This document shows positions 7,200 through 63,446 of a stretch of 64,000 bases of DNA, piece after piece; the first letter of the stretch is position 1; the number at the start of each line of letters is the position of its first letter. The stretch lies in NCBI RefSeq assembly GCF_013408175.1, contig NZ_JACBYW010000002.1, positions 372,001 through 436,000 of the forward strand, given 5' to 3'. Source of the DNA: Actinopolyspora biskrensis (GTDB lineage Bacteria > Actinomycetota > Actinomycetes > Mycobacteriales > Pseudonocardiaceae). Under the pieces are notes generated by a model that worked only from the letters and a program-made list of their open reading frames with translations, did no database searches and had not been told where the DNA came from. The position numbers and the translations under genes were made by a program.

Positions 7200-8396
7200 A
7201 TGTTGCGCGTTGGTCTCACAGGAGGAATCGGATCGGGGAAGTCGACGGTCGCGAACAGGCTGGCCGAGCACGGTGCCGTCGTCGTCGACGCGGACCTCGT
7301 TTCGCGGGAGGTCGTCGAACCGGGGACCGAAGGGCTTTCCGAGATCGTGGAGCACTTCGGTGCGGAAGTTCTCGACGAGGACGGGACGCTGAACCGTTCC
7401 GCGCTGGCGCGGGTGGTTTTCGGCGACGACGCGGCCCGGAGCGTGTTGAACGGGATCGTGCACCCCAGGGTCGCCGTCCGCACCGCCGAGTTGATCGCCG
7501 CGGCGCCAGAGGACGCCGTCGTGGTCCACGACGTCGCGCTGCTCGTCGAGAACGGCTACCAGGCCGACTACCACCTGGTCGTCGTGGTGGACGCCCCGGT
7601 GGAGCAGCGCGTGCGACGACTCGTCGATCGGGGGCTCTCCGCGGAGGACGCACGGTCCCGTATCGAGGCGCAGGCCGATGAGCGGCAGCGGCGCGCGGCC
7701 GCCGACGTTTGGCTGGACAACGGTTCCGAGCAGTGGGAACTCCGCGCCGAGGTGGATCGGTTGTGGGAGACGCGCCTGGTGCCTTTCGAGGCCAACGTGC
7801 GGGACCGCGTCCCGCAGTGCCCGAGTGGTCCTCCGGTGCTCGTCGCACCCGATCCGGAGTGGCCCGAACAGGCCCGGCGGTTGGCGGCGCGGATCGCCAG
7901 GGCAACGGGAGGGGGAAGTGCCCGGATCGATCACGTCGGCTCCACCTCGGTGCCGGGGCTGGCTTCCGAGGACGTGCTCGACCTGCAACTGACCGTCCGC
8001 ACCCCGGACGAGGCCGACGCCCTGGCCGAGCCGCTCGCCGCCGCCGGTTTCCCACGCCTGCCCGGACACGACTCGGACGAGCAGTGCACCGAGGATCCGG
8101 CGGAGCAGTGGTGGAAGAGGCGGCACGTTTCCGCTGATCCGGGCCGAAGGGTCGAGTTGGATCTGCGGGTGGAGGGCAGGAGCAACTGGCGCCTGGCACT
8201 GCTGTTTCCGGCCTGGTTGCGCGCGGAGGAGCAGGCCCGCGCGGAGTACGAGGAGCTCAAGAGCCGGTGCGCGGAGCTGTTCGCCTCGGACGTCGACTCC
8301 CGGCGCTACGCGGAGGCCAAGCGTGCCTGGTTCGAACAGGCCCTGCCGCGTGCCGAGCGGTGGGCGGCGCGCACGGGCTGGAGCCCGTACCGGTGA
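7200..8396 (+). CDS. coaE: Dephospho-CoA kinase fused to a GrpB/UPF0157 domain
   Basis: A 398-residue two-domain protein. Residues 1 to about 200 are dephospho-CoA kinase, the last step of coenzyme A synthesis, with the P-loop GGIGSGKST and the acceptor-site segment VVDADLVSREVVEPG. Residues from about 215 are a GrpB/UPF0157 nucleotidyltransferase-like domain, with the motif IDHVGSTSVPGL. The same fusion is found in mycobacterial CoaE, so it is a lineage trait. The start MLRVGLTGG at 7200 fits the family; an ATG at 7191 adds three residues and cannot be excluded. The gene runs convergently into the first DUF402 gene with a gap of three bases. Confidence 0.95.
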   Translation: MLRVGLTGGIGSGKSTVANRLAEHGAVVVDADLVSREVVEPGTEGLSEIVEHFGAEVLDEDGTLNRSALARVVFGDDAARSVLNGIVHPRVAVRTAELIAAAPEDAVVVHDVALLVENGYQADYHLVVVVDAPVEQRVRRLVDRGLSAEDARSRIEAQADERQRRAAADVWLDNGSEQWELRAEVDRLWETRLVPFEANVRDRVPQCPSGPPVLVAPDPEWPEQARRLAARIARATGGGSARIDHVGSTSVPGLASEDVLDLQLTVRTPDEADALAEPLAAAGFPRLPGHDSDEQCTEDPAEQWWKRRHVSADPGRRVELDLRVEGRSNWRLALLFPAWLRAEEQARAEYEELKSRCAELFASDVDSRRYAEAKRAWFEQALPRAERWAARTGWSPYR

Positions 8397-8399
8397 CGC

Positions 8400-8897
8400 T
8401 CAAAGTCCGGTGAACATCCCGCGGTGGGCCAGCCACTGTTCGATGTCGCGGTGCAGGCTGACTTCGTCGAAGACGCTGTGCACCGTGCGCAGCGCCAGAT
8501 CGGCGTCGTCGAGCGTCAGCTGACCTCGGTTTATCGCGGAGGCGTACTCCTCCGAATTGACGATGCGTGGTTGACCCCGTTGCGGGACTTCCAGTCCCAG
8601 GCGCAGGTCGGTCGTGATCCAGGAGCGCGCGTCGCGGTCGATGCGGACCGCCGTCAGCAGGCTCCCGTCGGGACGGGCGTGGCGACTGCGTGGCCGGTAA
8701 CGGGTCAGTCGCAGCCCCGGATCGGGGAGCAGCCAGGTGACCTCGCTGTCGTGAACCGGGTCCTCCGGCGTGCTGCATTCCAGGCACAGCCCCCATCGTT
8801 CGAGGTGACAGTCGTCCAGCTGCTGGACGGCTCCGGAACCCAGATGCCGTTGCGCGCTGGGTACGTCGACGATTTCGACGTGCTGAGGAGTGATCAC
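8400..8897 (-). CDS. DUF402-like protein, copy 1
   Basis: A 165-residue protein homologous to the neighbouring DUF402 gene at 9145-9699. Both open with a VE(I/V)xD strand, share a (T/V)WLLP(D/E)xxLR(L/V) block and end in the same helical layout. This copy is more diverged and has lost the central Y.D....E run that carries acidic metal ligands in the family, so it may be inactive. DUF402 proteins include nucleoside phosphatases of the FomD type. The GTG at 8897 (VITPQHVEIVD) is the likeliest start, but no clear ribosome-binding site is visible. Confidence 0.65.
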   Translation of the reverse strand: MITPQHVEIVDVPSAQRHLGSGAVQQLDDCHLERWGLCLECSTPEDPVHDSEVTWLLPDPGLRLTRYRPRSRHARPDGSLLTAVRIDRDARSWITTDLRLGLEVPQRGQPRIVNSEEYASAINRGQLTLDDADLALRTVHSVFDEVSLHRDIEQWLAHRGMFTGL

Positions 8898-47347: not shown

Positions 47348-48586
47348 GTGCGAATCGCTCTGCTGTCCTACCGAAGCAAGCCGCACAGCGGCGGGCAGGG
47401 GATCTATGTTCGCCACCTCAGCAGGGGGCTGGCCGAACTGGGGCACGAGGTGGAGGTCTTCTCCGGCCAACCCTATCCGGAACTGGACCACGGAGTGCGC
47501 CTGACCGAGGTCCCGAGCCTCGACCTCTACCGTGAGCCGGACCCCTTCCGCACGCCGCACCCTCGTGAACTGCGTGGCCCGCTCGACCTCGCGGAGCTGG
47601 GCATCATGTGGACGGCGGGGTTCCCCGAACCGCTCACCTTCAGCCTGCGTGCCGCGCGGATACTGCGCGACAGGGCCCACGAGTTCGACGTCGTACACGA
47701 CAACCAGTCCCTGGGCTACGGGCTGCTCGGCCTGCGCCGTGCGGGGATCCCGCTGGTCGCCACCGTGCACCACCCGATCACGCACGACCGCCGCGTGGAA
47801 CTGGAGGCGGCCAGGGGCTGGCGCAAGCTGACCGTGCGGCGCTGGTACGGCTTCCTCCGCATGCAGCGACGCGTGGCGCGGCGGGTTCCGCGGGTGCTGA
47901 CCGTTTCGCGGTCCTCGGCCGAGGACATCGTCAACGACTTCGGGGTGCCCGGGGACAACCTGCGGGTCGTTCCGCTCGGGGTCGATCCCGGGGTCTTCCG
48001 GCCACCGGAGCGCCCCCGCACACCCGGCAGGATCGTCGCCATGGCCAGTGCCGACACCCCGATGAAGGGGATCGACACCCTCCTCGAGGCGGTGGCCAAG
48101 CTGCGCACCGAGCGTTCGGTGGAGCTGGTGCTGGTTTCCAAGCCCGTCCGGGGCGGTCCGACCGAGAGGCTGATCGAGGAACTGGGGATCGGCGACATCG
48201 TCCACACGGTCAGCGGACTGACCGACACCCGGTTGGCCGAACTGTTCGGTTCGGCCGAGATCGCCTGCGTCCCCTCGCTGTACGAGGGGTTCTCGCTGCC
48301 GACCGTCGAGGCCATGGCCTGCGGCACCCCGTTGGTGGCCAGCCGCGCGGGAGCGATTCCCGAGGTGGTCGGAACCGACGGGACCACGGCCGAGCTGGTG
48401 CCGCCCGCCGATGTGGAGGCGCTGACCGGAGGGCTCGGTGCCCTGCTCGACGACCCGGACAAGAGGGCAGCACTGGGGCGAGCGGGACGAGCTCGGGTTC
48501 TCGCACGTTACAGCTGGGCTTCGGTGGCCGCGGCCACGGTCGACTGCTACGCCGAAGCCATCGAATCGAGCAGGAAAGGGCAGTGA
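47348..48586 (+). CDS. Glycosyltransferase family 4 (GT-B fold)
   Basis: A 412-residue retaining glycosyltransferase. The N-terminal glycine-rich loop SKPHSGGQGIYVRHLSRGL and the C-terminal donor-site E-x7-E motif (YEGFSLPTVEAMACGTPLVAS, read in two parts) are typical of GT4. It would transfer a sugar from a nucleotide donor to a lipid or cell-wall acceptor. The GTG is preceded by GAGGTGA. It is followed within 5 bp by a methyltransferase and then a cyclase-fold protein, a set conserved in many actinomycetes but without a known product. Confidence 0.9.
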   Translation: MRIALLSYRSKPHSGGQGIYVRHLSRGLAELGHEVEVFSGQPYPELDHGVRLTEVPSLDLYREPDPFRTPHPRELRGPLDLAELGIMWTAGFPEPLTFSLRAARILRDRAHEFDVVHDNQSLGYGLLGLRRAGIPLVATVHHPITHDRRVELEAARGWRKLTVRRWYGFLRMQRRVARRVPRVLTVSRSSAEDIVNDFGVPGDNLRVVPLGVDPGVFRPPERPRTPGRIVAMASADTPMKGIDTLLEAVAKLRTERSVELVLVSKPVRGGPTERLIEELGIGDIVHTVSGLTDTRLAELFGSAEIACVPSLYEGFSLPTVEAMACGTPLVASRAGAIPEVVGTDGTTAELVPPADVEALTGGLGALLDDPDKRAALGRAGRARVLARYSWASVAAATVDCYAEAIESSRKGQ

Positions 48587-48590
48587 GGCT

Positions 48591-49311
48591 TTGCTGACGG
48601 TGGATTTCGACACGCTCGGGGTGCGGCCGGGTCAACGGGTGTTGGACCTGGGTTGTGGCGCGGGCCGCCACGCCTTCGAGCTTTACCGCAGGGGACTGCG
48701 GGTGGTCGCCTTCGACCACGCGGAACAGGACCTCGCCGAGGTGTCCGCGATGTTCGGCGCCATGGAGCAGGAGGGCGAGGTCCCGGACGGAGCGGAAGCC
48801 ACCACCGTGCAGGGCGACGCCCTCGACCTGCCGTTCCCGGACGAGTCCTTCGACCACGTGATCGCCTCGGAGATCCTCGAACACATTCCCGAGGACGACA
48901 AGGTCATGCACGAGCTGGTCCGCGTGCTCAAACCGGGCGGGCGAGTCTCGGTGACCGTGCCCAGCCGGTTCCCGGAGCGGGTGTGCTGGGCGCTGTCCGA
49001 GCGGTACCACAACGTCGAGGGCGGGCACGTGCGGATCTACCGCAGGACCCAGCTGCTCGACCGGCTGCGGGCCGCCGGACTGCGCCCGGTTCACCACCAC
49101 CACGCGCACGCGCTGCACTCCCCGTACTGGTGGTTGAAGTGCGCGGTCGGGGTGGAACGCACCGACCACCCGCTGACCGGGCTCTACCACCGCATGCTGG
49201 TGTGGGACATGCTGCACGGGCCGTGGTTGACCCGGACGTTGGAGCGGTTGCTGAACCCGGTGCTGGGCAAGAGCGTGGTCACCTACCTGTACAAGCCCGC
49301 GGGGGTGTCAG

Positions 49312-49319
<8 letters not shown>
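48591..49319 (+). CDS. Class I SAM-dependent methyltransferase of the GT4 cluster
   Basis: A 242-residue methyltransferase with motif I VLDLGCGAGRHAFEL, acidic motif II VVAFDHAEQD and the later VRVLKPGGRVSVTVPS. A C-terminal HHHHAHALHSPYWWLKCA segment is distinctive of this cluster's methyltransferase in actinomycetes. The start is probably TTG at 48591 (MLTVDFDTLG), which fits relatives; GTG at 48600 is an alternative. Its end overlaps the next gene by 8 bp. Target unknown, perhaps the glycosylated lipid of the neighbouring enzyme. Confidence 0.85.
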
Positions 49320-51237
<1,918 letters not shown>

Positions 51238-51789
51238 TCAGGTCGGCGGGACGGGGCCGTCGAAGTCGGCGCGCCTGAGCCGGAAGACCTGCAGGTGCAG
51301 GCCGTGGTACTTGGTGGTCTCGCCCACCCAGTCCATGCCGATGTTGCGTGCCGTGGCTATGGCCCGCGAGTTCGCGGCCCGCGCCACGGCGAACACCTCG
51401 TCGACGTCCTGGGCGAAGGCCCAGCCGAGCAGCGCACGTGCGCCTTCGGTGGCGTAGCCCCTGCCCCATTCGTCCTGGCGTACCTGCCAGCGGATCTCGA
51501 GGTCCTCCTCGTAGGGGGGCAGCAACCGGAGGCCGAGGCCTCCCACCAGGACGTTGTCGGAACGACGCACCATGGCCCACCTCCCGGTGGGAGGGGCCAG
51601 ATTGGGGGCGGCCTCGACCCAGGCGTCCAGCACCGCACGCATCGCGTCCAGGTCGGGGACCCGTTGCATGACCGGAGTGAGCCACATGGCGATCTCGGGG
51701 TTGCCGTAGATACGGAAGGCCGCCTCGGCGTCCTCGGCGGCCCAGTCGCGTATCAGCAGTCGTTCGGTTTCCAGCGACAACGACGCCAT
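51238..51789 (-). CDS. GNAT acetyltransferase, RimJ/RimL type
   Basis: A 183-residue GNAT protein. The N-terminal TERLLIRDW and the acetyl-CoA loop DEWGRGYATEGARALLGWAF are the standard RimJ/RimL-like signatures; the terminal strand is IGMDWVGET. These enzymes acetylate N-termini or small amines. The acceptor is unknown. It faces away from the lipid-PKS locus across a 529 bp gap. Confidence 0.88.
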   Translation of the reverse strand: MASLSLETERLLIRDWAAEDAEAAFRIYGNPEIAMWLTPVMQRVPDLDAMRAVLDAWVEAAPNLAPPTGRWAMVRRSDNVLVGGLGLRLLPPYEEDLEIRWQVRQDEWGRGYATEGARALLGWAFAQDVDEVFAVARAANSRAIATARNIGMDWVGETTKYHGLHLQVFRLRRADFDGPVPPT

Positions 51790-52318
51790 ACCGCCACGCT
51801 ACCCGCGGAAGGCCCGCGCGGCTGGCCGGTTACCGGATCGTTGTCCGGCGTTTCGCGCTGCCGGTTCGGGCGGGCAACCGGGGCGGAGGAGTGAAGGGAT
51901 TTCGCCTTCCGCTTTGGTTCCGGGCGGGGTTTCGCGGCGGTTCGCCCTTCGTTCCGCCGTTTTTCTCCGCCTTTCCTCGGTGCGCGGTTTTGTTCGTCGT
52001 TCACGTGCTTCCCCGGGGGGACCTTCGGGGGTTTCCACCGGTAGTGGCCCGTCCTCCGGGATGAACCCGGGTCGGGAGGAGCTCGGAGCGGCGAATCGGA
52101 GGTGTGCGCGTGGCGCGTGATTATCAGCGGTGTGACAAGAACGCTTTCTCCCGCGCGCAGCGAAATGCGTCGTGGAAAATGTTGCGAATGTTTCCCGTCG
52201 GTTGTTGTTGACAGTGGTCGGGCTTCGTGAAATCTTCGAAAAGCGCCGGGTCGCGAATTTCCCGAATAATTGTTATCCGGTTTTCCCGCTCGTTTTTGTC
52301 GCACCTCGGGAAGGTTTT
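51790..52318. other. Promoter region of the lipid-PKS locus
   Basis: No gene is seen in 529 bp. From about 52120 on, the base composition drops to AT-richer DNA. TTGACA (52207-52212) is a consensus -35, but the -10 about 17 bp later is weak (AATCTT), which suggests an activator or alternative sigma factor. Confidence 0.45.
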
Positions 52319-54082
52319 ATGGAATCAACGACCGCGGAGTTCCCGTCGCGGCGGGACGAAGTCGTGCTGACCGACTACCTGGTTCGGTTCGCGCGGGAGC
52401 GCGGGGACAGCACCGCCGTCACGTTCGTCGACTACGCGGTGAGCAAGGACGGACTCGTGCAGTCGACGACGATGCGGGAGCTGCACCGGAGGGTGTGCGC
52501 CGTGGCCGCGTGGCTCGGACGGCGCTTCGACCGTGGCGAAAGGGTCGTGATCACGGCTCCGCAGAGCACCGAGTACGTGATCGGTTTCCTCGGGGCGATC
52601 CACGCCGGACTGATAGCGGTGCCGCTGTTCTCCCCGGACGCGGCCGGATCCGGGCGGCTCGACGGTGTCCTCGACGACTGCGCCCCCTCCTGCGCGCTCA
52701 CCGTGAAAGCGGACTTCGACAGGGTCAGGGAGGTGTTGCGCGAACGCGGGGGACGCGGTCCGGGGGAGTGCGTGGCGGTCGACACGATCTCCGACGCGCT
52801 GGCCGAGGAGTACGAACGTCCGTCGGTGGGGGACGAGGACGTGGCCTATCTGCAGTACACCTCGGGGTCGACCCGGACACCGGCCGGAGTGGAGATCACC
52901 CACGCCAACGTGATCGCCAACGCCGAGCAGGCCCTCGAGGCCTACGTGGGCGGCGACCCGCGGACGAGCACCGTGAGCTGGCTGCCGCTGTTCCACGACA
53001 TGGGGCTCGTGCTGTCCGTGGCCGCCCCGCTGGTGGGAGGTATCTCGACGGTGCTCATGGATCCGGCCGCGTTCCTGCGGCAACCGGGACGGTGGCTGCG
53101 GCAGCTCTCGGTGAGCTCCCCGGCCGTGACGGCGGCCCCGAACTTCGCCTTCGACTACTGCGCGGCCAGGGTCACCGACCGAGAGAAGGCGTGGTTGCGG
53201 CTGGACCGGGTCGTGTCGGTGATCAACGGCAGTGAGCCGGTCCGCCCGGCCACGATCGAACGGTTCAACGAGGCGTTCTCCTCCTGCGGGCTTCCCCCCG
53301 AGAGCCACCGGTCCTCGTTCGGTCTGGCCGAGGCGACCGTGTTCGTGTCGGTGAGCCCGGCCGGGAACGCGCCGCGAGCGGTCCGCTTCGACCGCGCCGC
53401 CCTCGGCGCGAACAGGGCCAGGCCCGCCGAGCGGGGTGTGGAAGCAGGCGAACTGGTCTCCTGCGGGAGGCCCCTCGGCCAGCGGGTGGCCATCGTGGAC
53501 CCCGACGCGCACCGCCCGCTGGAGGAGGGGGCGGTCGGGGAGATCTGGGTGCGCGGCCCCAACATTGGGCGGGGGTACTGGGGAAGATCCCGGGAGGAGT
53601 CGGCGAGCGTGTTCGACGCGCGACTCGCCGAGCCGGGGGAGCTGCCGGAGCGCGGTTGGCTGCGCACCGGCGACCTCGGGGTGTTCCACGAGGGCGAGCT
53701 CTACGTGACGGGGCGGATCAAGGACCTGATCGTCCTGGACGGTCGCAACCACTACCCCCAGGACGTCGAGGAGACCGTCGAAGGGTTGGAGCGGTTGCGC
53801 AAACACCACACCGCCGCGTTCGCGGTCACCGTCGAGGACGTCGAACGCCTGGTCGTCGTGGCCGAGTACGCGCGTTCGCTGCCGCGGGAGCAACGGGATC
53901 CGGTGGAAACAGCCGCGGCGGTGCGCGGGGCGATCGTCGCCGCGCACGGCGTCTCCGCCTACGAGGTGCTCCTGGTGGAACCGGACACGATCCCCCGCAC
54001 CTCCAGCGGAAAGGTCGCCCGTCGGCCCTGCAGGCAGCGTTATCTGGACAACGAGCTGGTTCCCGAGGACGCACATGATTGA
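52319..54082 (+). CDS. FadD32-like fatty acyl-AMP ligase
   Basis: A 587-residue adenylating enzyme. The phosphate loop YTSGSTRTPAGVEITHANV is the form found in FadD32, not in acyl-CoA synthetases; WLPLFHDMGLV and the C-terminal TGRIKDLIVLDGRNHYPQDVE also match the fatty acyl-AMP ligase branch, and the Lys of RTSSGKVARR is present. It would activate a fatty acid as acyl-AMP and load it on the N-terminal carrier domain of the PKS, as FadD32 does for Pks13. The ATG at 52319 has GGGAAGG at four bases. The stop overlaps the PKS start by 8 bp, so the two are coupled. Confidence 0.92.
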   Translation: MESTTAEFPSRRDEVVLTDYLVRFARERGDSTAVTFVDYAVSKDGLVQSTTMRELHRRVCAVAAWLGRRFDRGERVVITAPQSTEYVIGFLGAIHAGLIAVPLFSPDAAGSGRLDGVLDDCAPSCALTVKADFDRVREVLRERGGRGPGECVAVDTISDALAEEYERPSVGDEDVAYLQYTSGSTRTPAGVEITHANVIANAEQALEAYVGGDPRTSTVSWLPLFHDMGLVLSVAAPLVGGISTVLMDPAAFLRQPGRWLRQLSVSSPAVTAAPNFAFDYCAARVTDREKAWLRLDRVVSVINGSEPVRPATIERFNEAFSSCGLPPESHRSSFGLAEATVFVSVSPAGNAPRAVRFDRAALGANRARPAERGVEAGELVSCGRPLGQRVAIVDPDAHRPLEEGAVGEIWVRGPNIGRGYWGRSREESASVFDARLAEPGELPERGWLRTGDLGVFHEGELYVTGRIKDLIVLDGRNHYPQDVEETVEGLERLRKHHTAAFAVTVEDVERLVVVAEYARSLPREQRDPVETAAAVRGAIVAAHGVSAYEVLLVEPDTIPRTSSGKVARRPCRQRYLDNELVPEDAHD

Positions 54083-57000
54083 GCACTCCGAGATCCGGGA
54101 GTGGCTGGTTCACCGGATCGCCGAGCACACGGGGCAGGAACCGGAGCGGGTGGACACCACTCGCCCCTTCGACGAGTTCGGACTGTCCTCCAGGGACGTG
54201 GTGGGGATCTCGGGGGAGCTGGAGAACCTGCTCGGAAGGGGGCTTTCGGCCACCCTGCTCTGGGAGTTCCCCACCGTGGAGCGGTTGGCCGAGGCGTTGG
54301 AGGGGACCGAGGCGCGGCCCGGAGGGGAAACCTCGCCCGAACCGGGAGAACCGGTCGCGGTCGTGGGCCTGGGGTGCCGTTTTCCGGGAGTGGACGGGCC
54401 CGAGGAGTTCTGGCGGCTGCTCGACGACGGCGCCGACACGATCGGAACCGTCCCGGCGGGGCGGTGGGAGCAGTTCGCCGCGGGGCAGCCGGACCTCCTG
54501 GAGGGACTGCCCCGCGCGGGCGGCTACTTCGACGACGTGTCCGGTTTCGACGCGGGCTTCTTCGAGATATCGCCGCGGGAGGCCGAGGTGATGGATCCGC
54601 AGCAGCGCCTGCTGCTGGAGGTGGCCTGGGAGGCGCTCGAGCACGCGGGCAGTGCTCCCTCCCGGCTGCGCGGTTCGGCCACGGGAGTGTTCGTGGGGGC
54701 TTCCGCGACGGAGTACAGTCACCTCACCGCCGGGGACATCGCGGCGGTCGACGCCTGGACCGGCACCGGCGGCGCCATGAGCGTCATCGCCAACCGGATC
54801 TCCTATCTGCTGGACCTGCGTGGCCCGAGCATGGCCGTCGACACCGCCTGCTCCTCCTCGCTGGTCGCGCTGCACCAGGCCTGTGCGAGCCTGCGTTCCG
54901 GGGAGAGCAGCACCGCCCTGGCGTGCGGGGTCAATCTGCTGCTGTCCCCGGCGGTCACGGCCAACTTCGCCAGCGCGGGGGCGCTGGCCCCGGACGGGCG
55001 CTGCAAGCCCTTCGACGCCGCGGCGGACGGGATCGTCCGCGGCGAGGGCTGCGGCGCCGTGGTGCTCAAACCGCTTTCCGCGGCCGCTCGCGACGGTGAC
55101 AGGATCCACGCCGTCATCCGCGGGTCCGCCGTGAACTCGGACGGCCGGTCGAACGGCTTGATGGCACCGAACCCCGCCGCGCAGGCGGAACTGCTCCGCA
55201 CCGCCTACGGGGCCGCCGACCTCGATCCCACCGTGGTGGACTACGTGGAGGCGCACGGGACAGGAACTCTGCTGGGCGATCCGATCGAGGCGCAGGCACT
55301 CGGATCGGTGCTGGGAGCCGAACGCGGGGAGCGGCGCCCGGTGCTGCTCGGTTCGGTCAAGGCCAACCTGGGACATCTGGAGGCCGCGGCCGGGATAGCG
55401 GGAGTGATCAAGGTCGTGCTCGCGATGCGGCACGGCAGGCTGCCCGCCACCCCCAACCACACCACTCCCAATCCGCACATCCCGCTCGAGCGGGACAACC
55501 TCGAGGTCGTGGGACGGACACGTCCCTGGCCCCGCTACTCCGGTGCGGCGCGGGCCGGAGTGTCCGGGTTCGGGTTCGGCGGTACCAACGCCCACGTGGT
55601 GCTCGAGTCCTGGGAGGCTCCGCGCCCGGACGGCGCGGGGACGAGCGCGCCGCACACCTTCCTGCTCTCGGGAAGCGGGACCAGGCGGTTGTGCGACACG
55701 GCGGGGAGGCTGGCCGACTGGCTGCGCCGGCCTGCCGGTGAACGCACTCCGCTCGGCGACGTGGCCCGCACGCTGCTGCACGGACGCCAACACCATGCCG
55801 AGCGGGCGGCGGTGGTCACCGATGACCGTTCCGAGCTGGCCGAGAGGCTGCGCTCGCTGGCGGCGGGGGAGACCGGCCCCGGGGTCCTGCGTGGCAGGAA
55901 GGACCCCGGTGGGAACGGGCCGGTCTGGGTGTTTTCCGGATACGGCTCGCAGTGGCCCGGCATGTGTCGTGGACTGGTGCGCTCCGAACCGGCCTTCGCC
56001 GGCTTCCTGGAGGAGCACGATGCGGAGTTCCGCGCCGTCGCGGGGTTCTCGCTGCTCGACGCGCTGTCCGCGGGGGAGGAGCTCGGGGGGCTCTACCGTT
56101 GCCAGCTCGGCCTGTTCGGGACCCAGCTCGCCCTGGCGCGGCTGTGGCGCTCGCGAGGAGTGCGGCCGAGCGCGGTCATCGGCCATTCGATGGGGGAGGT
56201 GGCCGCTGCGGTGGCGGTCGGGTCCCTGGAGCACAGGCAGGGACTCGAGGTCATGGACACCCGGACACGTCTGCTGAGCGAGACGGAGCTCGCAGGCGGG
56301 GGTGCGATGGCCGCTCTGGAGGGGTCGGCCGAGGAGGTCGAGGAGTTGAGCGACTGGTTCCCCGGAGTGGTGCCTGCCGTGCGAACCTCCTCCCGGAGGT
56401 GCACCGTCGCCGGACCGGCGGACGAGATCGAGCTGATCGCGAAGCACTTCCGGCGGAGGGACCGCACGGCGAAGGTCCTCGACGTCTCCGGCGCGGGGCA
56501 CACGGCGGCCGTGGAGCCACTGCTGGAACGACTGCGCGCGGAACTCGCCGAGCTGACCCCCTCCGAACCGGACGCGCCCGTCTACAGCACGGCGCACGAG
56601 GACCCGCGCGCTCTTCCCCTCTTCGACGGCCCCTACTGGGCACGGAACCTGCGCTCGCCGGTGCGGCTGGACAGGGCCGTGCACGCGGCCGCGGCCGACG
56701 GGTTCGACACTTTCCTGGAGATAGCTCCGCACCCGATCGTCTCCGGAGGGCTGGAGGAGTCGTTGACCGACGCGGGGGTCGCTTCGCCGCGGATCGCGTT
56801 CAGCTGCCTGCGGGACACCGACGACACGGTGACCTTCCGCGAGAACCTGGCTCGACTGTGGGTGGACGGGCACGTGCCCGAGCAGCAGGGCGAGGGCGCT
56901 CCTCCGGAGGAGCTCGCCGAACTGCCGCCCGCCGCGTGGCGGCACGAGAGCTTCTGGGTCTCCCGGCGGAAGCGGGCCACCGGATCCGCGGAACATCCAC

Positions 57001-60000
57001 TGCTCGGCGAGCGCGTGGAACTCCCGACGGGACAGCTCGTTTGGCGGGGCGATGTGGGCACCTCGCTCCTGCCGTGGCTGGGCGATCACCGGGTGCACGG
57101 GACCGGGGTGCTGGCAGGATCCGCCTACCTGGAGATGGCGCTGACCGCGGCGCTGCGGACGTGGCGTGCCGAACCGGCCGCACCGGTCGTCCGGGAACTG
57201 GAACTGAGCGATCTGCTCGTGCTGAGCGAGGAGGTCGCGGTCACGACGGTGGGCACCCCTCACGAGGCGGGGGTGACGGTCGAGGTTTTCTCCCGCTCGG
57301 CCTCGGGGGAGTGGACCCGTCACGCCGCGGCGGAGGTGGTTCCGGACGGGCAGCGGCATCCCGGCACGGTGGAGGACGAATCGGCCTCGGCGGAGAACGT
57401 CGAGATCTACCGCGCGCTGCGCGCCGGGGGGCAGGACTACGGTCCGGCGTTCCGGCCGATAGAGACGGTACGGGCCCGCGCGGGACGCGCCGCAGCCGAA
57501 CTGGCCCTCCCCGACGAGGCGGGGCCTTCGAAAGGTTTCCGCGCACATCCGGCGCTGGTCGACGGATGTCTGCAGAGCCTCGTCGCCGCGGCTCTCGCTC
57601 CGGAGAGCCCGCTGTCCACCACCGAGCTGTTCGTCCCGGTGCTTTTCCGCGACGTCCGCGTGTTCGACGAGTTGCCGGAACGGCTCCGGTGCTCTTCCAC
57701 GCTGGACGGTTATGTCGACGACACGCACGTGAGTGGTTCGGTGCTGGTCACCGACGAGCGTGGCCGGGCGGTGCTGGAGATCGGCGAGGTGCGGGCCCGC
57801 CGCGTCGGGGCGACCCCGGTGCCACGGGAGCTCTCCGAGGCGTTGCTGCGGCACGAGTGGGAACCGGCCCGGGCGCCGGAGCGGGCAGCTCGCGCGGGGA
57901 AGTGGCTACTGCTCGGTGACCTGCCCGAGTTGGCCGAACAGCTGCGGCGGAGTGGTGAACGGGTGTCGCTGCGGGCCCGCTTGGACGATTCCGGGACACC
58001 GGAAGCGCCGGACGAGCTCACCGCCGCCCCCGAGCTTCCGTTCCGCGGGGTGGTCCTCGCGGCCCACGAGAGCGATCCGGAGCCCGCGCACGAGGAGCGG
58101 CAGCGTTCGCTGCTCCGGCTCTCCGAGCTGGTGCGGTGGTCGCGGGCCCGTCCCGACCCACCCGAACGACTGTGGATCCTCAGCTCGGCCCGGCACAACG
58201 CGGAGCTGCGAGCCCTGGTGCGCGTGCTGGCCCTCGAAGCCCCGGGGCTGCGCGTCTCACTGGTGGAGGGGGAGCCGGCGGCGCGGTCGCTGGCGGCCGA
58301 ACTGTGCGCCGAGGAGTCCGAGGACGACGTCCGCTGGGTGGGCGAACAGCGTCACGTGGCCAGGCTGCGCCGCGGATTCCCGGACCACGGGGGAGCCGGG
58401 TTCGGGGTGCGCCCGGAGGGGTACGTGATAACCGGCGGGCTGGGTGGTCTCGGACTGACCTTCGCGCACTGGCTGGTGGATCGCGGAGCGCGTCGCGTCG
58501 TGCTCAACGGGCGCGGGCGACCGTCTCCCGCCGCCGAGCGCCAGATCGAGCTGCTGCGGGACAAGGGCGCGGAGACAGCGGTGGTCCACGGGGACATCGC
58601 CGAGCCGGGGGTGGCCGAGCGGCTGGTCACCGCTGCCACCGAGGGATCCACGGCACTGCGCGGAGTGCTGCACGCCGCCGGTGTGCTGGCGGACGCGGAG
58701 TGCGCGGAGCTCGACGGGACGAGTCTGGAGCGGGTCTGGCGCCCCAAAGTCCGTGGCGGGCAGCGGTTGCACGAGGCGACCGAGGGGGTGGAACTGGACT
58801 GGTGGGTGGCGTTCTCCTCCGCGGCCGCGCTGCTCGGTTCTCCCGGTCAGACCGCCTATGCGGCGGCCAACGGGGCGCTGGACGACCTGGTCCGCCTGCG
58901 GAGGGAGCGGGGACTGGTCGCCACGAGTGTGCAGTGGGGCGTCTGGGGCGAGGTCGGTGCTGCCGGTGGGAACTTCGACGACGTGCTCCCGCCGTTGTCC
59001 ACGAAGTCCGGAGTGGAGGCGTTCGAGAAGTTGCTCGCCCCGCGGGAAGCCGTCACGGGGCTGGCCTGGCTGAACGGGAACCGGGCCGCCGCGCGTTTTC
59101 CCGAGCTGGGGCGGCGCCCGTTCTTCCGGGAGTTGGTCACCGGCGCTTCGCCCCGGGCGGGCGAGTTCGACGACGCGGAGGGGTTGAGCGAGCTGCCCCC
59201 GGAGGAGGCCCTGGAACGGCTCACCGTGGTGCTGACCGAGCTGCTCGGAGCGGTATGCGGAACCGCCTCCGGGGAGATCGACGCGGACGCCGCGCTCACC
59301 GAACTCGGGTTCGACTCGTTGATGGCGATGCGTGCGCGCAACGCGGTCGAGAGCCGTTTCGGGGTGTCCGTGCCCGCGGCGCTGTTGCTGCGCGGGGCGA
59401 GCACCACCGAGCTCGCGGTGCACCTCGCGAACAGGCTCGGCGTCGAGACGGACGGTGCTCCCGCCACCGGCCGGACTTCGGTCGGCCCGCGGGACGCCAC
59501 CGAGCGCTGGATCGCCCACCTGTGGCGGCAGGCCCTCGGGCTGGACGCGGTCGGGGTCGACCGGGACTTCCGTTCCGTCGGAGGCGACGACTCGGCGGCC
59601 GCGGAAATATCGGCCGCGGTCGGGGAAAGGCTCGGCGAGCCGGTGCCGGGGCTTTTCGAGCACCCGACGATAGAGCGGATGTCCGACCTGGTGCGGGAGC
59701 GCTTCGAGTCGGCGGGCGGGCCCGTGCGCGAGCTGCGTTCCGCGGGCGGTGCGACCCCGCTGTTCCTGTTCCACCCGGCGGGCGGTCCCACGAGCGTCTA
59801 CCAGCCGTTGACGGAGCTGCTCGGCGCGGACCAGCCCTGTTACGGCCTCGAGCGGCTGGACCGGTTCGACACCGTGGAGGACAAGGCCTCCGAGTACCTG
59901 TCCCTGATCCGCGGCATCCAGCCGCACGGCCCGTACCGCCTGGGCGGTTGGTCGTTCGGCGGCTGTCTGGCCTTCGAGACGGCACGCCGGATCGAGCAGG

Positions 60001-60545
60001 CGGGCGAGCGGGTGGAGCTGGTGGTGCTCATCGACACGATCCTCCCGCTGCCCTCGGAGGAGGAAAACCGGGGTGAGCTGGTCACGCGGCGTTTCGGGAG
60101 GTTCGTCGAGCACGTCGAGCACACCTACGGCGTTTCGCTCGGGATCTCCGTCGAGCGGTTGGCCGAGTCCGACGAGCGGGAGCAGCTGGAGCACGTCATG
60201 AACGCTCTGGCCGAGTCGGAGGCGAACATCGGCCACGGGGTGCTGCGGCACCAGTACACCTCCTACGTGGACGCCCGGATCGCCGAGCGCTACAGGCCGG
60301 CGAACCACGAGGGACCCGTGGTGCTCTACCGCGCGGAGAGGGCCGAGCACACCACCACCAAGCTCGATCCGCGGTACCTGCGCTCGGACGAGACGCTCGG
60401 CTGGGACGAGTTCGCGAGCGCTCTCGAAGTCGTCCGCGTTCCCGGGGACCACCTCTCGATGATCGACCCGCCCAACGTGGAGCGGATCGCCGAGCACCTT
60501 CGCGGTCTGCTCGGCGACGGAGGCAGCGGCCCGGTGAGGGAGTGA
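54075..60545 (+). CDS. Type I polyketide synthase ACP-KS-AT-DH-KR-ACP-ACP-TE
   Basis: A 2156-residue synthase. Domains in order: N-terminal ACP (about 1-80, motif GLSSRDV, as in Pks13); KS (about 92-515, Cys259 in DTACSSS, then EAHGTGT and KANLGHL); AT (about 615-900, Ser705 in GHSMGE); DH (about 985-1260, His1005 in HRVHGTGVLA, Asp1163 in DGCLQ); KR (about 1440-1640, TGGLGGLG and QTAYAAAN); ACP (Ser1748 in GFDSL); a second, PCP-like carrier (Ser1840 in GGDDS); and thioesterase (about 1890-2150, Ser1960 in GWSFGG, Asp in LIDT, His in PGDHLSM). No enoyl reductase is seen. The likely act is one extension of a ligase-supplied fatty acid by a carboxyacyl-CoA, ketoreduction, possible dehydration, and release or transfer by the thioesterase. 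Confidence 0.93.
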   Translation: MIEHSEIREWLVHRIAEHTGQEPERVDTTRPFDEFGLSSRDVVGISGELENLLGRGLSATLLWEFPTVERLAEALEGTEARPGGETSPEPGEPVAVVGLGCRFPGVDGPEEFWRLLDDGADTIGTVPAGRWEQFAAGQPDLLEGLPRAGGYFDDVSGFDAGFFEISPREAEVMDPQQRLLLEVAWEALEHAGSAPSRLRGSATGVFVGASATEYSHLTAGDIAAVDAWTGTGGAMSVIANRISYLLDLRGPSMAVDTACSSSLVALHQACASLRSGESSTALACGVNLLLSPAVTANFASAGALAPDGRCKPFDAAADGIVRGEGCGAVVLKPLSAAARDGDRIHAVIRGSAVNSDGRSNGLMAPNPAAQAELLRTAYGAADLDPTVVDYVEAHGTGTLLGDPIEAQALGSVLGAERGERRPVLLGSVKANLGHLEAAAGIAGVIKVVLAMRHGRLPATPNHTTPNPHIPLERDNLEVVGRTRPWPRYSGAARAGVSGFGFGGTNAHVVLESWEAPRPDGAGTSAPHTFLLSGSGTRRLCDTAGRLADWLRRPAGERTPLGDVARTLLHGRQHHAERAAVVTDDRSELAERLRSLAAGETGPGVLRGRKDPGGNGPVWVFSGYGSQWPGMCRGLVRSEPAFAGFLEEHDAEFRAVAGFSLLDALSAGEELGGLYRCQLGLFGTQLALARLWRSRGVRPSAVIGHSMGEVAAAVAVGSLEHRQGLEVMDTRTRLLSETELAGGGAMAALEGSAEEVEELSDWFPGVVPAVRTSSRRCTVAGPADEIELIAKHFRRRDRTAKVLDVSGAGHTAAVEPLLERLRAELAELTPSEPDAPVYSTAHEDPRALPLFDGPYWARNLRSPVRLDRAVHAAAADGFDTFLEIAPHPIVSGGLEESLTDAGVASPRIAFSCLRDTDDTVTFRENLARLWVDGHVPEQQGEGAPPEELAELPPAAWRHESFWVSRRKRATGSAEHPLLGERVELPTGQLVWRGDVGTSLLPWLGDHRVHGTGVLAGSAYLEMALTAALRTWRAEPAAPVVRELELSDLLVLSEEVAVTTVGTPHEAGVTVEVFSRSASGEWTRHAAAEVVPDGQRHPGTVEDESASAENVEIYRALRAGGQDYGPAFRPIETVRARAGRAAAELALPDEAGPSKGFRAHPALVDGCLQSLVAAALAPESPLSTTELFVPVLFRDVRVFDELPERLRCSSTLDGYVDDTHVSGSVLVTDERGRAVLEIGEVRARRVGATPVPRELSEALLRHEWEPARAPERAARAGKWLLLGDLPELAEQLRRSGERVSLRARLDDSGTPEAPDELTAAPELPFRGVVLAAHESDPEPAHEERQRSLLRLSELVRWSRARPDPPERLWILSSARHNAELRALVRVLALEAPGLRVSLVEGEPAARSLAAELCAEESEDDVRWVGEQRHVARLRRGFPDHGGAGFGVRPEGYVITGGLGGLGLTFAHWLVDRGARRVVLNGRGRPSPAAERQIELLRDKGAETAVVHGDIAEPGVAERLVTAATEGSTALRGVLHAAGVLADAECAELDGTSLERVWRPKVRGGQRLHEATEGVELDWWVAFSSAAALLGSPGQTAYAAANGALDDLVRLRRERGLVATSVQWGVWGEVGAAGGNFDDVLPPLSTKSGVEAFEKLLAPREAVTGLAWLNGNRAAARFPELGRRPFFRELVTGASPRAGEFDDAEGLSELPPEEALERLTVVLTELLGAVCGTASGEIDADAALTELGFDSLMAMRARNAVESRFGVSVPAALLLRGASTTELAVHLANRLGVETDGAPATGRTSVGPRDATERWIAHLWRQALGLDAVGVDRDFRSVGGDDSAAAEISAAVGERLGEPVPGLFEHPTIERMSDLVRERFESAGGPVRELRSAGGATPLFLFHPAGGPTSVYQPLTELLGADQPCYGLERLDRFDTVEDKASEYLSLIRGIQPHGPYRLGGWSFGGCLAFETARRIEQAGERVELVVLIDTILPLPSEEENRGELVTRRFGRFVEHVEHTYGVSLGISVERLAESDEREQLEHVMNALAESEANIGHGVLRHQYTSYVDARIAERYRPANHEGPVVLYRAERAEHTTTKLDPRYLRSDETLGWDEFASALEVVRVPGDHLSMIDPPNVERIAEHLRGLLGDGGSGPVRE

Positions 60546-60547
60546 CC

Positions 60548-62116
60548 ATGTCGGACGAGGACGCACGCGGCACGGCCGGACGCATCGCGGACCTGGAGCG
60601 CAGGCACCGCGCGGCGACTTCCGAGGCGGACGAGAGGGCACGCGGCAAGCAGCACCCGAGGGGCAAGGGCACCGCCAGGGAACGCGTCGAGTCGCTCGTG
60701 GACGAGGGGTCCTTCGTGGAGACGGGCGAGTTCGTGCTGCGGCGCGACGACCGCCGCGGCGGTGAGGACGAACGGGTCTACGGGGACGGGGTGGTCACCG
60801 GACACGCCACCGTGGATGGGAGGCGGGTCTGCCTGTTCTCGCACGACTTCACCACGTTCGGCGGAAGCATGGGCGAGGCCTTCGGAGAGAAGGTGCTCAG
60901 GGTCATGGACCTGGCGCTGAGCACCGGCTGCCCCGTCATCGGCATCAACGACTCGGGAGGGGCCCGCATCCAGGAAGGGGTCACCTCGCTGGCCTACTAC
61001 GCGGAACTGGCCCGGCGGAGCTCCAGCGCTTCCGGGGTGGTGCCGCAGATATCCGTGATCACGGGACCGTGCGCGGGCGGTGCCGTCTACACCCCGGCGA
61101 TCACCGACTTCACCGTCATGGTCGAGGGGACCTCGCGGATGTTCGTCACCGGTCCGGAGGTGGTCCGCTCGACGACCGGCGAGGAGGTGACGGGTGAGGA
61201 GCTCGGCGGGGCCGGTGCCAACGCCGCGGCGGGCAACGTCCACTACGTCGCCGCGGACGAGGAGGACGCGTTCGACTGGGTCAGGGCGCTGCTGGCCCAC
61301 CTGCCCGCCAACAACCTGGAAGCCCCTCCCGAGTTTCCCGAGAGCGCCGCCGCGCCCGCCGAAGAGCTCGACACGGTGATCCCCGACTCCCCGAACCGTC
61401 ACTACGACATGTTCGGCGTGCTCAGCCGCGTGCTCGACGAGGGGGAGCTGCTGGAGGTGCAGTCCTCGTCCGCGCCGAACATGCTGTGCGGGTTCGGGCG
61501 GTTGCGGGGGAGAACCGTGGGGGTGGTGGCCAACCAGCCGATGTGCCGTTCCGGAATCATCGACATAGCCGCCAGCGAGAAGGCGGCCCGGTTCGTGCGG
61601 TTCTGCGACGCGTTCAACGTCCCCCTGCTGACCTTCGCCGACGTGCCCGGATACCTGCCGGGCAGCGAACAGGAGCGCGGGGGGATCATCCGGCGCGGGG
61701 CCAAGCTGGTCTACGCGTACTCGGAGGCCACCGTTCCCAAGATCACCGTGGTCACCAGGAAGGCCTACGGCGGTGGGTACGCGGTGATGGGCTCCAAGCA
61801 TCTCGGTGCGGACATGAACTTCGCCTGGCCCACCTCCGAGATAGCCGTCATGGGAGCGGAGGGCGCCGTGGAGCTGCTCCACCGCGACGAACTGGCAGCG
61901 GCCACCGCGAACGGTTCGGTGGAGGAGGTGCGCGCCAAGCTCGTCGAGGAGTACCGCGAGGTGTTCGCCAACCCGTACACGGCGGCGGAGCGGGGGTACG
62001 TGGACGCGGTGATCAGGCCTTCGCGGACGCGGGCTGAGCTGGACGCCTCACTGCGGGTGCTGGAGTCCAAGCGCGAGCAGGGGCCTCCGAGAAAGCACAG
62101 CACGATGCCCCTGTGA
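60548..62116 (+). CDS. Acyl-CoA carboxylase carboxyltransferase (beta) subunit
   Basis: A 522-residue biotin-dependent carboxyltransferase of the PccB/AccD family. The N-terminal crotonase-like half has the carboxybiotin site NDSGGARIQEGV; the second half has the acyl-CoA site RKAYGGGYAVMGSKHLGAD. The residue that sets chain-length preference (Asp in propionyl-CoA carboxylases of Streptomyces, GGAYDVM) is Ala here, which suggests a pocket for a longer acyl-CoA, as AccD4 has for mycolate synthesis. It would make the carboxylated extender for the PKS. The ATG at 60548 has GGGAG at five bases, two bases after the PKS stop. No biotin carboxylase alpha subunit is in the window. Confidence 0.92.
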   Translation: MSDEDARGTAGRIADLERRHRAATSEADERARGKQHPRGKGTARERVESLVDEGSFVETGEFVLRRDDRRGGEDERVYGDGVVTGHATVDGRRVCLFSHDFTTFGGSMGEAFGEKVLRVMDLALSTGCPVIGINDSGGARIQEGVTSLAYYAELARRSSSASGVVPQISVITGPCAGGAVYTPAITDFTVMVEGTSRMFVTGPEVVRSTTGEEVTGEELGGAGANAAAGNVHYVAADEEDAFDWVRALLAHLPANNLEAPPEFPESAAAPAEELDTVIPDSPNRHYDMFGVLSRVLDEGELLEVQSSSAPNMLCGFGRLRGRTVGVVANQPMCRSGIIDIAASEKAARFVRFCDAFNVPLLTFADVPGYLPGSEQERGGIIRRGAKLVYAYSEATVPKITVVTRKAYGGGYAVMGSKHLGADMNFAWPTSEIAVMGAEGAVELLHRDELAAATANGSVEEVRAKLVEEYREVFANPYTAAERGYVDAVIRPSRTRAELDASLRVLESKREQGPPRKHSTMPL

Positions 62117-62204: not shown

Positions 62205-63446
62205 TCAGCCGCCCGGCCACTCCGTGCCGGTCCCGTCGTCTCCGGTGAGCATGTTCGACGCGCGCAGCGCGATCTCCATGTCGAATCGCACCTCGGGGTC
62301 GTGCAGGTCCTGCCCGAACAGCTCGTCCAGCTGACGCAGCCGGTAGCGCACGGTCTGCGGGTGCACCCGCAGGCGCTGGGCCACCTCGGGCGCTCCGCCC
62401 CGGGTCTGCAGCCAGCTCAGCAGGGTCGCGGCGAGACGCGCCCGCTGCTTGGGGCGCAGTTCGGTCAGCGGGGAGAGCCTGCGCCTGGCCAGTTCCCGGA
62501 CCAGGTGCTCGTCCTGGAGCAGCAGAATGCTGGACAGGTCCTCGTGGCAGTGGTTGACGCGTCTGTCCGGCCAGGCGCCGGAGCGGATCAGCCCCATGAG
62601 GCTGCGGCACCAGCGCAACGACTTGTCGGCCCGGTGCAGCGGGACGGGAGACCCGAGCACGACCCGCCAGCCGGCGAGTTCGGCGGCCCAGTCGATCCGA
62701 TCGGGTTCGCCGTGGTCGCTGGGGACGAGCACGTGCGGCTCGGCGCATTCCAGGTCCACCAGGGCGTTCCACTGGGCCAGGGGAGTGGTGGTGCTCGGAT
62801 CGGTCCTCTCGTACTGCTCCAGCGCCGCCACGGTCACCTGCCCGGGCAGCTTCCACTGCGCCGTGCTCGCCGCGTCCTCGACGGTTCGTGCCGGTGCCTG
62901 CGGTTCCGAGACGAGCAGTTCCAGGAGTCTTCTGCGTCTGCGGGCGATGGTTCCCGCCGCTCTGGCCTGGGCCGCGGCGTAGCCCTCCACCGACAGGGTG
63001 GTGAGCTCGTCGATGTGGGCGAAGATGGCCTCGCCGAGCAGCAGCGTGGTGCGCGGGGCTATGCGTACCCGTTCGCTCAGGTTGGCGACCCGGCGCCAGG
63101 CCAGTCTGGCCCCGATGCGGTAGGCGGCCTGCAGGCTGTCCAGGCTGCGCCCCTCGCGCATCTCGGCCTTGCCGAGGGCGCGGTGCACCTCGGCGCAGCG
63201 CCGCAGCGGGGTGGCCGGGTCGGCGATGCGTTCGACGAACCGGCCGAGGGCCTCCTCGATTCCGCGGCGGATCGCGTACACGTAGTTCCGGTCGAGCGGC
63301 CTGGCGTACTCGGGTATCTGCCGTTGGATCTCGGTCAGGATCTGGTTGGCCAGACTGGGGATCTCGGGACGCAGCAGTGGTGCCAGGTCGTCGGGGAGCG
63401 CCGCCCACAGTCGTCTCGTCTCGGTGCTGTTCGCCGGTTTCGTCAT
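62205..63446 (-). CDS. PucR-family regulator, FasR-like
   Basis: A 413-residue regulator. The C-terminal PucR helix-turn-helix (VAQRLRVHPQTVRYRLRQLDELF) lies at about 358-382. The N-terminal part (PEIPSLANQILTEIQRQIPEYA) and the middle GGDEF-related region match FasR, the activator of fatty-acid synthesis in Streptomyces, which has the same length. FasR normally sits beside fabD; here the neighbour is the carboxylase of the lipid-PKS locus, convergent with it. Control of that locus is plausible but unproven. The ATG at 63446 has GAGGGAG four bases upstream. Confidence 0.85.
   Translation of the reverse strand: MTKPANSTETRRLWAALPDDLAPLLRPEIPSLANQILTEIQRQIPEYARPLDRNYVYAIRRGIEEALGRFVERIADPATPLRRCAEVHRALGKAEMREGRSLDSLQAAYRIGARLAWRRVANLSERVRIAPRTTLLLGEAIFAHIDELTTLSVEGYAAAQARAAGTIARRRRRLLELLVSEPQAPARTVEDAASTAQWKLPGQVTVAALEQYERTDPSTTTPLAQWNALVDLECAEPHVLVPSDHGEPDRIDWAAELAGWRVVLGSPVPLHRADKSLRWCRSLMGLIRSGAWPDRRVNHCHEDLSSILLLQDEHLVRELARRRLSPLTELRPKQRARLAATLLSWLQTRGGAPEVAQRLRVHPQTVRYRLRQLDELFGQDLHDPEVRFDMEIALRASNMLTGDDGTGTEWPGG

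Follow-up and report, generated by a model that had tools for sequence, protein, structure and literature searches.

The window analysed here is a stretch of 64,000 nucleotides of DNA from the salt-loving actinomycete Actinopolyspora biskrensis and belongs to contig C2 of a 4.95-Mb genome. On its + strand, three long open reading frames (ORFs) overlapping by 8 and 4 bases code for a fatty acyl-AMP ligase (FAAL; 52319..54082; PF00501), a single-module polyketide synthase of 2156 residues (PKS; 54075..60545) and an acyl-CoA carboxylase beta subunit (AccD; 60542..62116; PF01039, Carboxyl_trans). The GC content at third codon positions is strong in the three genes (0.86, 0.88 and 0.91, respectively). 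The FAAL ORF is open from a GTG at 52172 and the in-frame ATG at 52319 is its 50th codon; a start at 52319 or nearby is likelier because the FAAL matches of the genus begin at residues 30-45 of the longer frame. This FAAL is the sole one of its genome at E<=1e-60. A first-pass annotation, made from the letters of the window, had described the locus as a FAAL-PKS-AccD set in the order of fadD32-pks13-accD4. This observation is confirmed: the three ORFs are coding, carry the expected Pfam domains and keep their order in relatives, where the arrangement recurs beyond chance.

Domains of the polyketide synthase and the extender unit

The sequence and its Pfam matches give the PKS the organisation ACP-KS-AT-DH-KR-ACP-ACP-TE, all on the + strand. 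An N-terminal acyl carrier domain (ACP; 54075..54314) with a GLSS serine is Pks13-like, as had been proposed, the match to Pks13 beginning at residue 5. It is followed by a ketosynthase (KS; 54348..55619; PF00109/PF02801 and trees), an acyltransferase with a GAGH motif (AT; 55923..56870; PF00698 and alignment), a dehydratase (DH; 56994..57824; PF21089, PF14765) and a ketoreductase (KR; 58422..58949; PF08659). Two neighbouring carrier domains, predicted by the annotation and recovered here as PF00550 stretches (59232..59417 and, with approximate borders, 59472..59699, the second seen in relatives too), precede a thioesterase or acyl-transfer domain (TE; 59757..60503; PF00975), so that Pfam finds three PP-binding stretches in the protein. 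The active sites are kept in KS (Cys-His-His), AT (Ser), KR (Ser-Tyr-Asn/Lys) and TE (GxSxG), the motifs of KS, AT, KR, DH and TE being read in their usual meaning. The KR carries an LxD motif, presumably that of a B-type enzyme giving the 3R alcohol, and this reading would agree with the 3-hydroxyl of mycolic acids. In the DH, the catalytic His and Asp are present and the Pro of the first motif is replaced by Ala; with this Pro lost, the end product may be either 3-hydroxy or 2-enoyl. No enoyl-reductase (ER) family is listed among the Pfam matches of the window PKS.

A lone module equipped with both KR and DH is able to work iteratively, and the enzyme might then build a longer polyketide of the linear type, like the actinopolysporins known from A. 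erythraea. Against this, Pks13, which condenses once, is the nearest characterised relative, and the window PKS has no ER. Actinopolysporins A-C are reported as linear polyketides of the genus (C15H28O4, C16H30O4 and C16H30O2; accessible parts of PMC4176971 and PMC7024382), their relation to this cassette being hypothetical, and iteration seems very improbable to us. The Pks13 step is termed the final Claisen condensation in the accessible part of PMC13324839.

The nature of the extender unit was approached through the carboxylase. MccB is reported to carboxylate medium-chain acyl-CoAs, with Gly161 at a position occupied by Phe in short-chain enzymes and Ala423 where PccB has Asp, an Asp to Ala change letting PccB accept longer chains (PMC5187497, in part). 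In the alignment, Ala157 and Ala414 of the window AccD correspond to MccB positions 161 and 423, giving the small residue and the Ala of the longer-chain type. Of the 65 aligned rows, 11 duplicate a gene already represented; across the 50 distinct cassette and AccD4 proteins, position 161 is Gly, Ser, Ala or Val and position 423 is Ala or Gly. The four scored paralogues of the own genome combine Phe with Asp (L119), Ile (L120 and L123) or Tyr (L122), two distant matches (L124 and L125) having been excluded from the scoring. The AT motif GAGH is found in 25/25 cassettes with DH, KR and AccD, the window included, and in 14 of 18 Pks13 rows (GASH in 3, AASH in 1), and it is absent from the 17 ordinary PKS rows, which show YASH, VASH, FASH, forms ending in AFH and one GPGH; we take YASH and HAFH to denote methylmalonyl and malonyl specificity, respectively.

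The possibility has to be weighed that the carboxylase supplies methylmalonyl-CoA only, in which case the PKS would extend a fatty acid by a single methyl-branched unit. In the PDB, AccD indeed matches Streptomyces coelicolor PccB best, with 709 bits against 526 for the mycobacterial chain D4a. Nevertheless, L119 is the paralogue with the Phe and Asp of PccB, against Ala and Ala in the window protein, and the AT motif is GAGH and not of the YASH type. Moreover, the top PDB row is the D422A mutant of PccB, a change reported to admit longer acyl-CoAs (PMC5187497, in part). A methylmalonyl-restricted system thus looks quite improbable. The use of long acyl-CoAs, on which the annotation had made the alpha-alkyl product depend, is supported by Ala157, Ala414 and the GAGH motif, all of the long-chain type, and with an AT motif and both carboxylase residues of the AccD4/MccB type, alpha-alkylation is the best reading of these sequences.

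Relation to FadD32, Pks13 and AccD4

The three proteins were compared with the families of the mycolate locus, known from Mycobacterium, Nocardia, Rhodococcus and Corynebacterium. The NCBIfam equivalog cut-offs are 2100 bits for Pks13 (NF040607) and 975 bits for FadD32 (NF038339). The window PKS reached 1339 bits against the Pks13 model, far under the cut-off, compared with 2674 bits for the Nocardia anaemiae control and 1296 bits for an Amycolatopsis cassette PKS. Likewise, the window ligase remained at 547 bits against the FadD32 model (N. anaemiae control, 1225 bits). Its leading NCBIfam models and PDB rows are FAALs or FadD32-type enzymes, with FadD32 proteins as the best PDB matches; its kinship to FAALs exceeds that to other AMP-forming ligases, and no single subfamily cut-off is reached. 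For the carboxylase, the Nocardia control has chain D4a, which we take to be AccD4 from the chain name, as its best PDB match (762 bits), whereas the window protein has PccB. Furthermore, the window PKS contains DH and KR domains, unlike the reduction-free ACP-KS-AT-ACP-TE organisation of Pks13: no DH or KR was detected by domain scan in the Pks13 of 17/17 loci of mycolate genera, as the annotation had maintained.

Phylogenetic analysis placed the window beside Pks13 and outside it. The KS tree was built on 82 rows, 37 of 119 having been omitted as near-copies or repeats. In this tree, the 12 Pks13 rows form one branch (support 100/100) with the window outside, and the window groups with other FAAL-linked PKSs, a 56-row group including Pks13 being supported at 94/89. 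In the KS-AT tree (64 rows), a group of 41 rows (95/95) contains both the window and Pks13, 11 ordinary PKSs are separate (100/100) and the 9 Pks13 rows again form one branch without the window (100/100). Kinship with ordinary PKSs, which the annotation had named as the outcome that would speak against it, is disfavoured by KS-AT: grouping the window type with ordinary PKSs against Pks13 was rejected (p-AU 0.005), in a test whose group was chosen after the first tree had been seen and with several Pks13 rows of deviating composition. With KS alone, the window type beside ordinary PKSs gave p-AU 0.186 and was not rejected. In the carboxylase tree, the 12 AccD4 rows are united in a single branch (100/100) and the window protein lies outside. 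As the Pks13 stem is long and the nearest neighbours change between the KS and KS-AT trees, a loss of reducing domains by Pks13 and a gain by the others are both possible.

Because of the scores under the cut-offs and the placement of the carboxylase, the window locus is not fadD32-pks13-accD4 itself; the ligase and the PKS stay below thresholds passed by their Nocardia counterparts and the carboxylase is outside the AccD4 clade. The mycolate-condensation-like interpretation of the annotation therefore holds for the type of machinery and fails for the family. As judged from sequence, the operon is another branch of the superfamily that holds fadD32-pks13-accD4.

Distribution and the mycolyltransferase homologue

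A scan of genome contigs with the FAAL, in which 80 of 586 confirmed loci were kept, revealed that the FAAL-PKS-AccD system is spread beyond A. biskrensis across several genera. FAAL, a PKS with DH and KR, and AccD follow each other in 17/80 loci (Amycolatopsis 9, Actinokineospora 4, Saccharopolyspora 2, Actinopolyspora 1 and Frankia 1), of which Saccharopolyspora, Amycolatopsis and Actinokineospora are kin at the family level. AccD accompanies a PKS without DH or KR in 18 loci (17 of mycolate genera and 1 of Streptomyces), with DH only in 2 and with KR only in 2. Loci in which AccD was not found have DH and KR (3), KR only (3) or neither (9). Three loci are cut by a contig end, and in 23 the FAAL is not directly followed by a KS; in two of these (L038 and L041) a KS lies upstream of it. 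Two loci from metagenome-assembled genomes of Solirubrobacteraceae and Patulibacter (L063 and L080) show FAAL-PKS-AccD with DH and no detected KR; their class is not that of the known mycolate producers.

In Actinopolyspora, 8/10 genomes, the window's included, contain a full-length PKS homologue (65-69% identity), and the gene order is the same in 7/7 relatives where 20-kb stretches were read. In the other two genomes (G001 and G005), the matches are partial, with 42-43% identity, and belong to other PKSs; no full-length cassette PKS is present there. A distinct PKS, encoded in a 2108-residue frame at G000:C1:735998-740134 (L139), is 42% identical over the KS-to-DH part and has close copies in these two genomes without cassette.

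The search for mycolyltransferases suggested by the annotation yielded one PF00756 homologue in the own genome, a protein of 348 residues at C5:120750-121796 (L162:9750-10796), unlinked to the operon. It has a hydrophobic N-terminus, as seen by eye, and matches PS1 at 2.7e-46; it combines homology to Ag85/PS1 with the catalytic Ser-Glu-His. In the own protein, these three residues and GTHSWPYW line up with their counterparts in the homologues that flank fadD32-pks13 in Nocardia and Rhodococcus; Ser, Glu, His and THSWPYW of the cassette transferases do so too. In related cassettes, the gene directly after AccD codes for such a mycolyltransferase homologue; that of Actinokineospora pegani, a PF00756 protein, matches PS1 (1e-48), Cmt1 (7e-20) and Ag85C (8.5e-20) before a ferulic acid esterase (8e-13). 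A PF00756 protein was found near the FAAL cassette in 20 of 37 chosen loci and a major facilitator superfamily (MFS) transporter in 15. When the own protein was used as query, a homologue was detected at 16 of the 17 loci with DH, KR and AccD (above 350 bits in 15, the weakest being that of Frankia with 106 bits), none being found at the Actinopolyspora alba locus; MFS genes occur at 11 of the 17. A homologue is also present at 17/17 Pks13 loci of mycolate genera (136-170 bits). As transferase homologues adjoin both systems, the neighbourhood, and not the gene order alone, is common with the mycolate system.

The own transferase is 63% identical to that of the Amycolatopsis marina cassette, and the MFS protein encoded directly upstream of it is 62% identical to the one beside the same cassette. 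Two genes from the transferase, a class 2 lipase is 63% identical to a lipase of relative G010, in which transferase, AccD, PKS, FAAL, MFS, lipase and PucR genes lie in one stretch (L020). These data are compatible with one ancestral cassette that would have been split in two in Actinopolyspora. PKS and transferase occur in the same 8/10 Actinopolyspora genomes and the other two have neither. Among 150 Pseudonocardiaceae genomes (6 Actinopolyspora among those listed), with thresholds of at least 450 bits for the FAAL and at least 130 bits for the transferase, all 45 genomes with a FAAL have a transferase homologue, compared with 18 of the 105 without; a homologue lies within 15 kb of 52 of the 63 FAALs of at least 450 bits.

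The linkage and the co-occurrence with a mycolyltransferase-like secreted enzyme bear on another explanation, in which an alpha-alkyl acid, enoic or hydroxylated, is secreted free or as a simple ester by a small cryptic natural-product pathway and the transferase acts on something else. A C-terminal TE releases the free acid by default, and the transferase is unlinked in Actinopolyspora. In addition, Ray et al. counted an Amycolatopsis cluster with MccB and a single module among the cryptic natural-product clusters (PMC5187497, in part), and the formula of actinopolysporin C of A. erythraea, C16H30O2, fits by itself a monounsaturated acid (PMC7024382, in part). Since this explanation leaves the recurring transferase aside, we consider it unlikely.

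Other candidates for the cassette were rejected. A relative of the own class 2 lipase stands beside the cassette at L020 only, with 0/80 among the scanned loci. An MmpL3-type exporter finds little place, MMPL genes standing beside the cassette in 3/37 loci (L028, L030 and L035); two MMPL proteins and a weak match are encoded elsewhere in the own genome and share 31-34% identity with the three cassette-side ones, so that no link is proposed. The cutinase family PF01083 has no match in the own genome, which has no bearing on PF00756 transferases.

Beside the operon, a PucR-type gene (62205..63446, - strand; PF13556), 82-84% identical in 7/7 genus loci read and with homologues of 41-49% identity near 6 of the 20 loci compared outside the genus, is the probable regulator of the cassette. 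Upstream, a glycosyltransferase, a methyltransferase and a 366-residue protein without Pfam match (47348-50412) are conserved in the genus. Together with a GNAT gene (51238-51789), they were discarded as cassette parts, being present in 7/7 genus loci and 0/20 others. The GNAT gene runs against the FAAL in the window and in L013 and in the direction of the FAAL in L014-L019, which is a small inversion within the genus. Across the genus, identity is 64-78% for the operon proteins and mostly higher for the flanks (glycosyltransferase 88-91%, PucR as above); either the cassette evolves faster than some of its neighbours or it was exchanged. Genes of an R2-like ligand-binding oxidase (R2lox) were observed near the FAAL cassette in 5/37 loci (L028, at 7521-8450 with 549 bits against a cut-off of 286, L027, L030, L043 and L046) and, at a distance of up to 15 kb from a FAAL of the cassette type, in 8 of 45 FAAL genomes (G061, G062, G079, G080, G094, G133, G148 and G149). 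R2lox was not retained as a cassette part: it is linked in these 8/45, yet occurs in 85/150 genomes anyway. Its proximity is a possible clue to an oxidase role in acyl-chain modification.

Proposed pathway and comparison with known systems

It is somewhat probable, from the sequences considered above, that the operon encodes a mycolate-like condensation pathway which carries out its own reduction and is completed by export and acyl transfer. The FAAL would activate a fatty acid as acyl-AMP and load it on the N-terminal ACP, while AccD and a shared biotin subunit would carboxylate a medium- or long-chain acyl-CoA to alkylmalonyl-CoA. The AT would take this extender and the KS would condense the two chains once, by a Claisen reaction, to an alpha-alkyl beta-keto acyl-ACP. 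The KR would reduce it to the 3-hydroxy chain and the DH, with no ER to follow, may proceed to the 2-enoyl one, the tandem ACPs holding the chain. The TE would then free the chain or pass it to an alcohol or a sugar; the product would be exported, for instance by the MFS protein of the C5 locus, and an Ag85/PS1-like secreted transferase would acylate an outer acceptor. The locus and the transferase homologue point to an unrecognised exported or envelope lipid.

Several observations weigh against this pathway or limit its support. The altered DH motif touches the final reduction state, the KS-only test did not separate the window type from ordinary PKSs, and the deep branch order differs between the KS and KS-AT trees. 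GAGH also occurs in FAAL-linked PKSs without a neighbouring AccD (e.g. L012, L064 and L075) and is for this reason a mark of the superfamily and not a proof of chain length. For the own transferase, the structure of a non-mycolyl esterase, 5vol, comes after Cmt1 and ahead of Ag85 among the matches. Transferases also lie near FAALs without a PKS directly after them (12/23 loci), so that they may go with FAALs generally; the counts in the 150 genomes likewise take the FAAL regardless of PKS adjacency. The Fisher value of this association (6e-24) is uncorrected for kinship, and the two Actinopolyspora genomes lacking both genes may represent one event. The co-occurrence cut-offs were chosen after the scores had been seen; at 450/250 bits for FAAL and transferase, respectively, the association is weaker, still strong (36 genomes with both, 9 with FAAL only, 9 with transferase only and 96 with neither), the corresponding numbers being 32, 6, 13 and 99 at 500/250 bits and 27, 11, 0 and 112 at 500/300 bits.

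A further-reaching version is put forward tentatively, and we would not expect it to hold in full: the pathway would be a second, self-reducing mycolate system in mycolate-free Pseudonocardiaceae, whose alpha-alkyl 3-hydroxy or 2-enoyl chains would be exported and esterified by the Ag85-type enzyme, possibly onto arabinogalactan. The supposition of inferred relatives without mycolic acids in the annotation is in agreement with the accessible part of PMC6194230, according to which Pseudonocardiales and Actinopolysporales lack mycolic acids and some have arabinogalactan. The latter is the reason for which arabinogalactan is considered, speculatively, as one possible acceptor. If this version were true, the Pks13 system would be one derived offshoot, devoid of reduction, of an older and broader machinery, and the chemotaxonomic statement 'no mycolic acids' for the order would mask a related lipid.

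The same source regards mycolic acids as confined to Corynebacteriales and raises the question of the stepwise origin of the mycomembrane (PMC6194230, in part). With a sister condensation branch and mycolyltransferase homologues in mycolate-free, partly arabinogalactan-bearing relatives, this origin becomes testable: is a mycolate-like lipid present there, and was Pks13 derived from such a stock? The reading also predicts an unrecognised lipid in the industrially used Amycolatopsis and Saccharopolyspora and offers a PKS that would condense and keto-reduce in one polypeptide. A literature search whose coverage excluded most subscription papers found none that describes such a cassette with a linked mycolyltransferase in Pseudonocardiaceae. 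The biosynthetic half was probably glimpsed in 2016 and the mycolyltransferase link is new as far as this search shows.

That earlier glimpse is the cryptic Amycolatopsis cluster of Ray et al. (2016), with one PKS module and homologues of MccB and SamR0482, described as 'widely conserved in Amycolatopsis' (PMC5187497, in part). It resembles loci L028-L036 in its single module and MccB-type carboxylase, and the two are probably the same family. MccB itself (SamR0483 of stambomycin, forming alkylmalonyl-CoA) resembles the window AccD by a small residue at 161 and Ala at 423; it differs by Gly instead of Ala at 161 and by feeding a large modular PKS with medium-chain extenders. With PS1, Cmt1 and Ag85, the own homologue, known by its sequence and encoded away from the operon, shares PF00756, the aligned Ser-Glu-His and the THSWxYW motif. 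Compared with fadD32-pks13-accD4, the window locus differs by its DH and KR domains, two C-terminal ACPs, scores under the cut-offs, a separate clade and a transferase unlinked in Actinopolyspora, in an order reported without mycolic acids (PMC6194230, in part). The two systems are alike in gene order, N-terminal ACP, KS-AT kinship, the GAGH/GASH motif of the AT, the small residue and Ala of the carboxylase, and a PF00756 homologue, which in the mycolate genera accompanies every one of the 17 loci.

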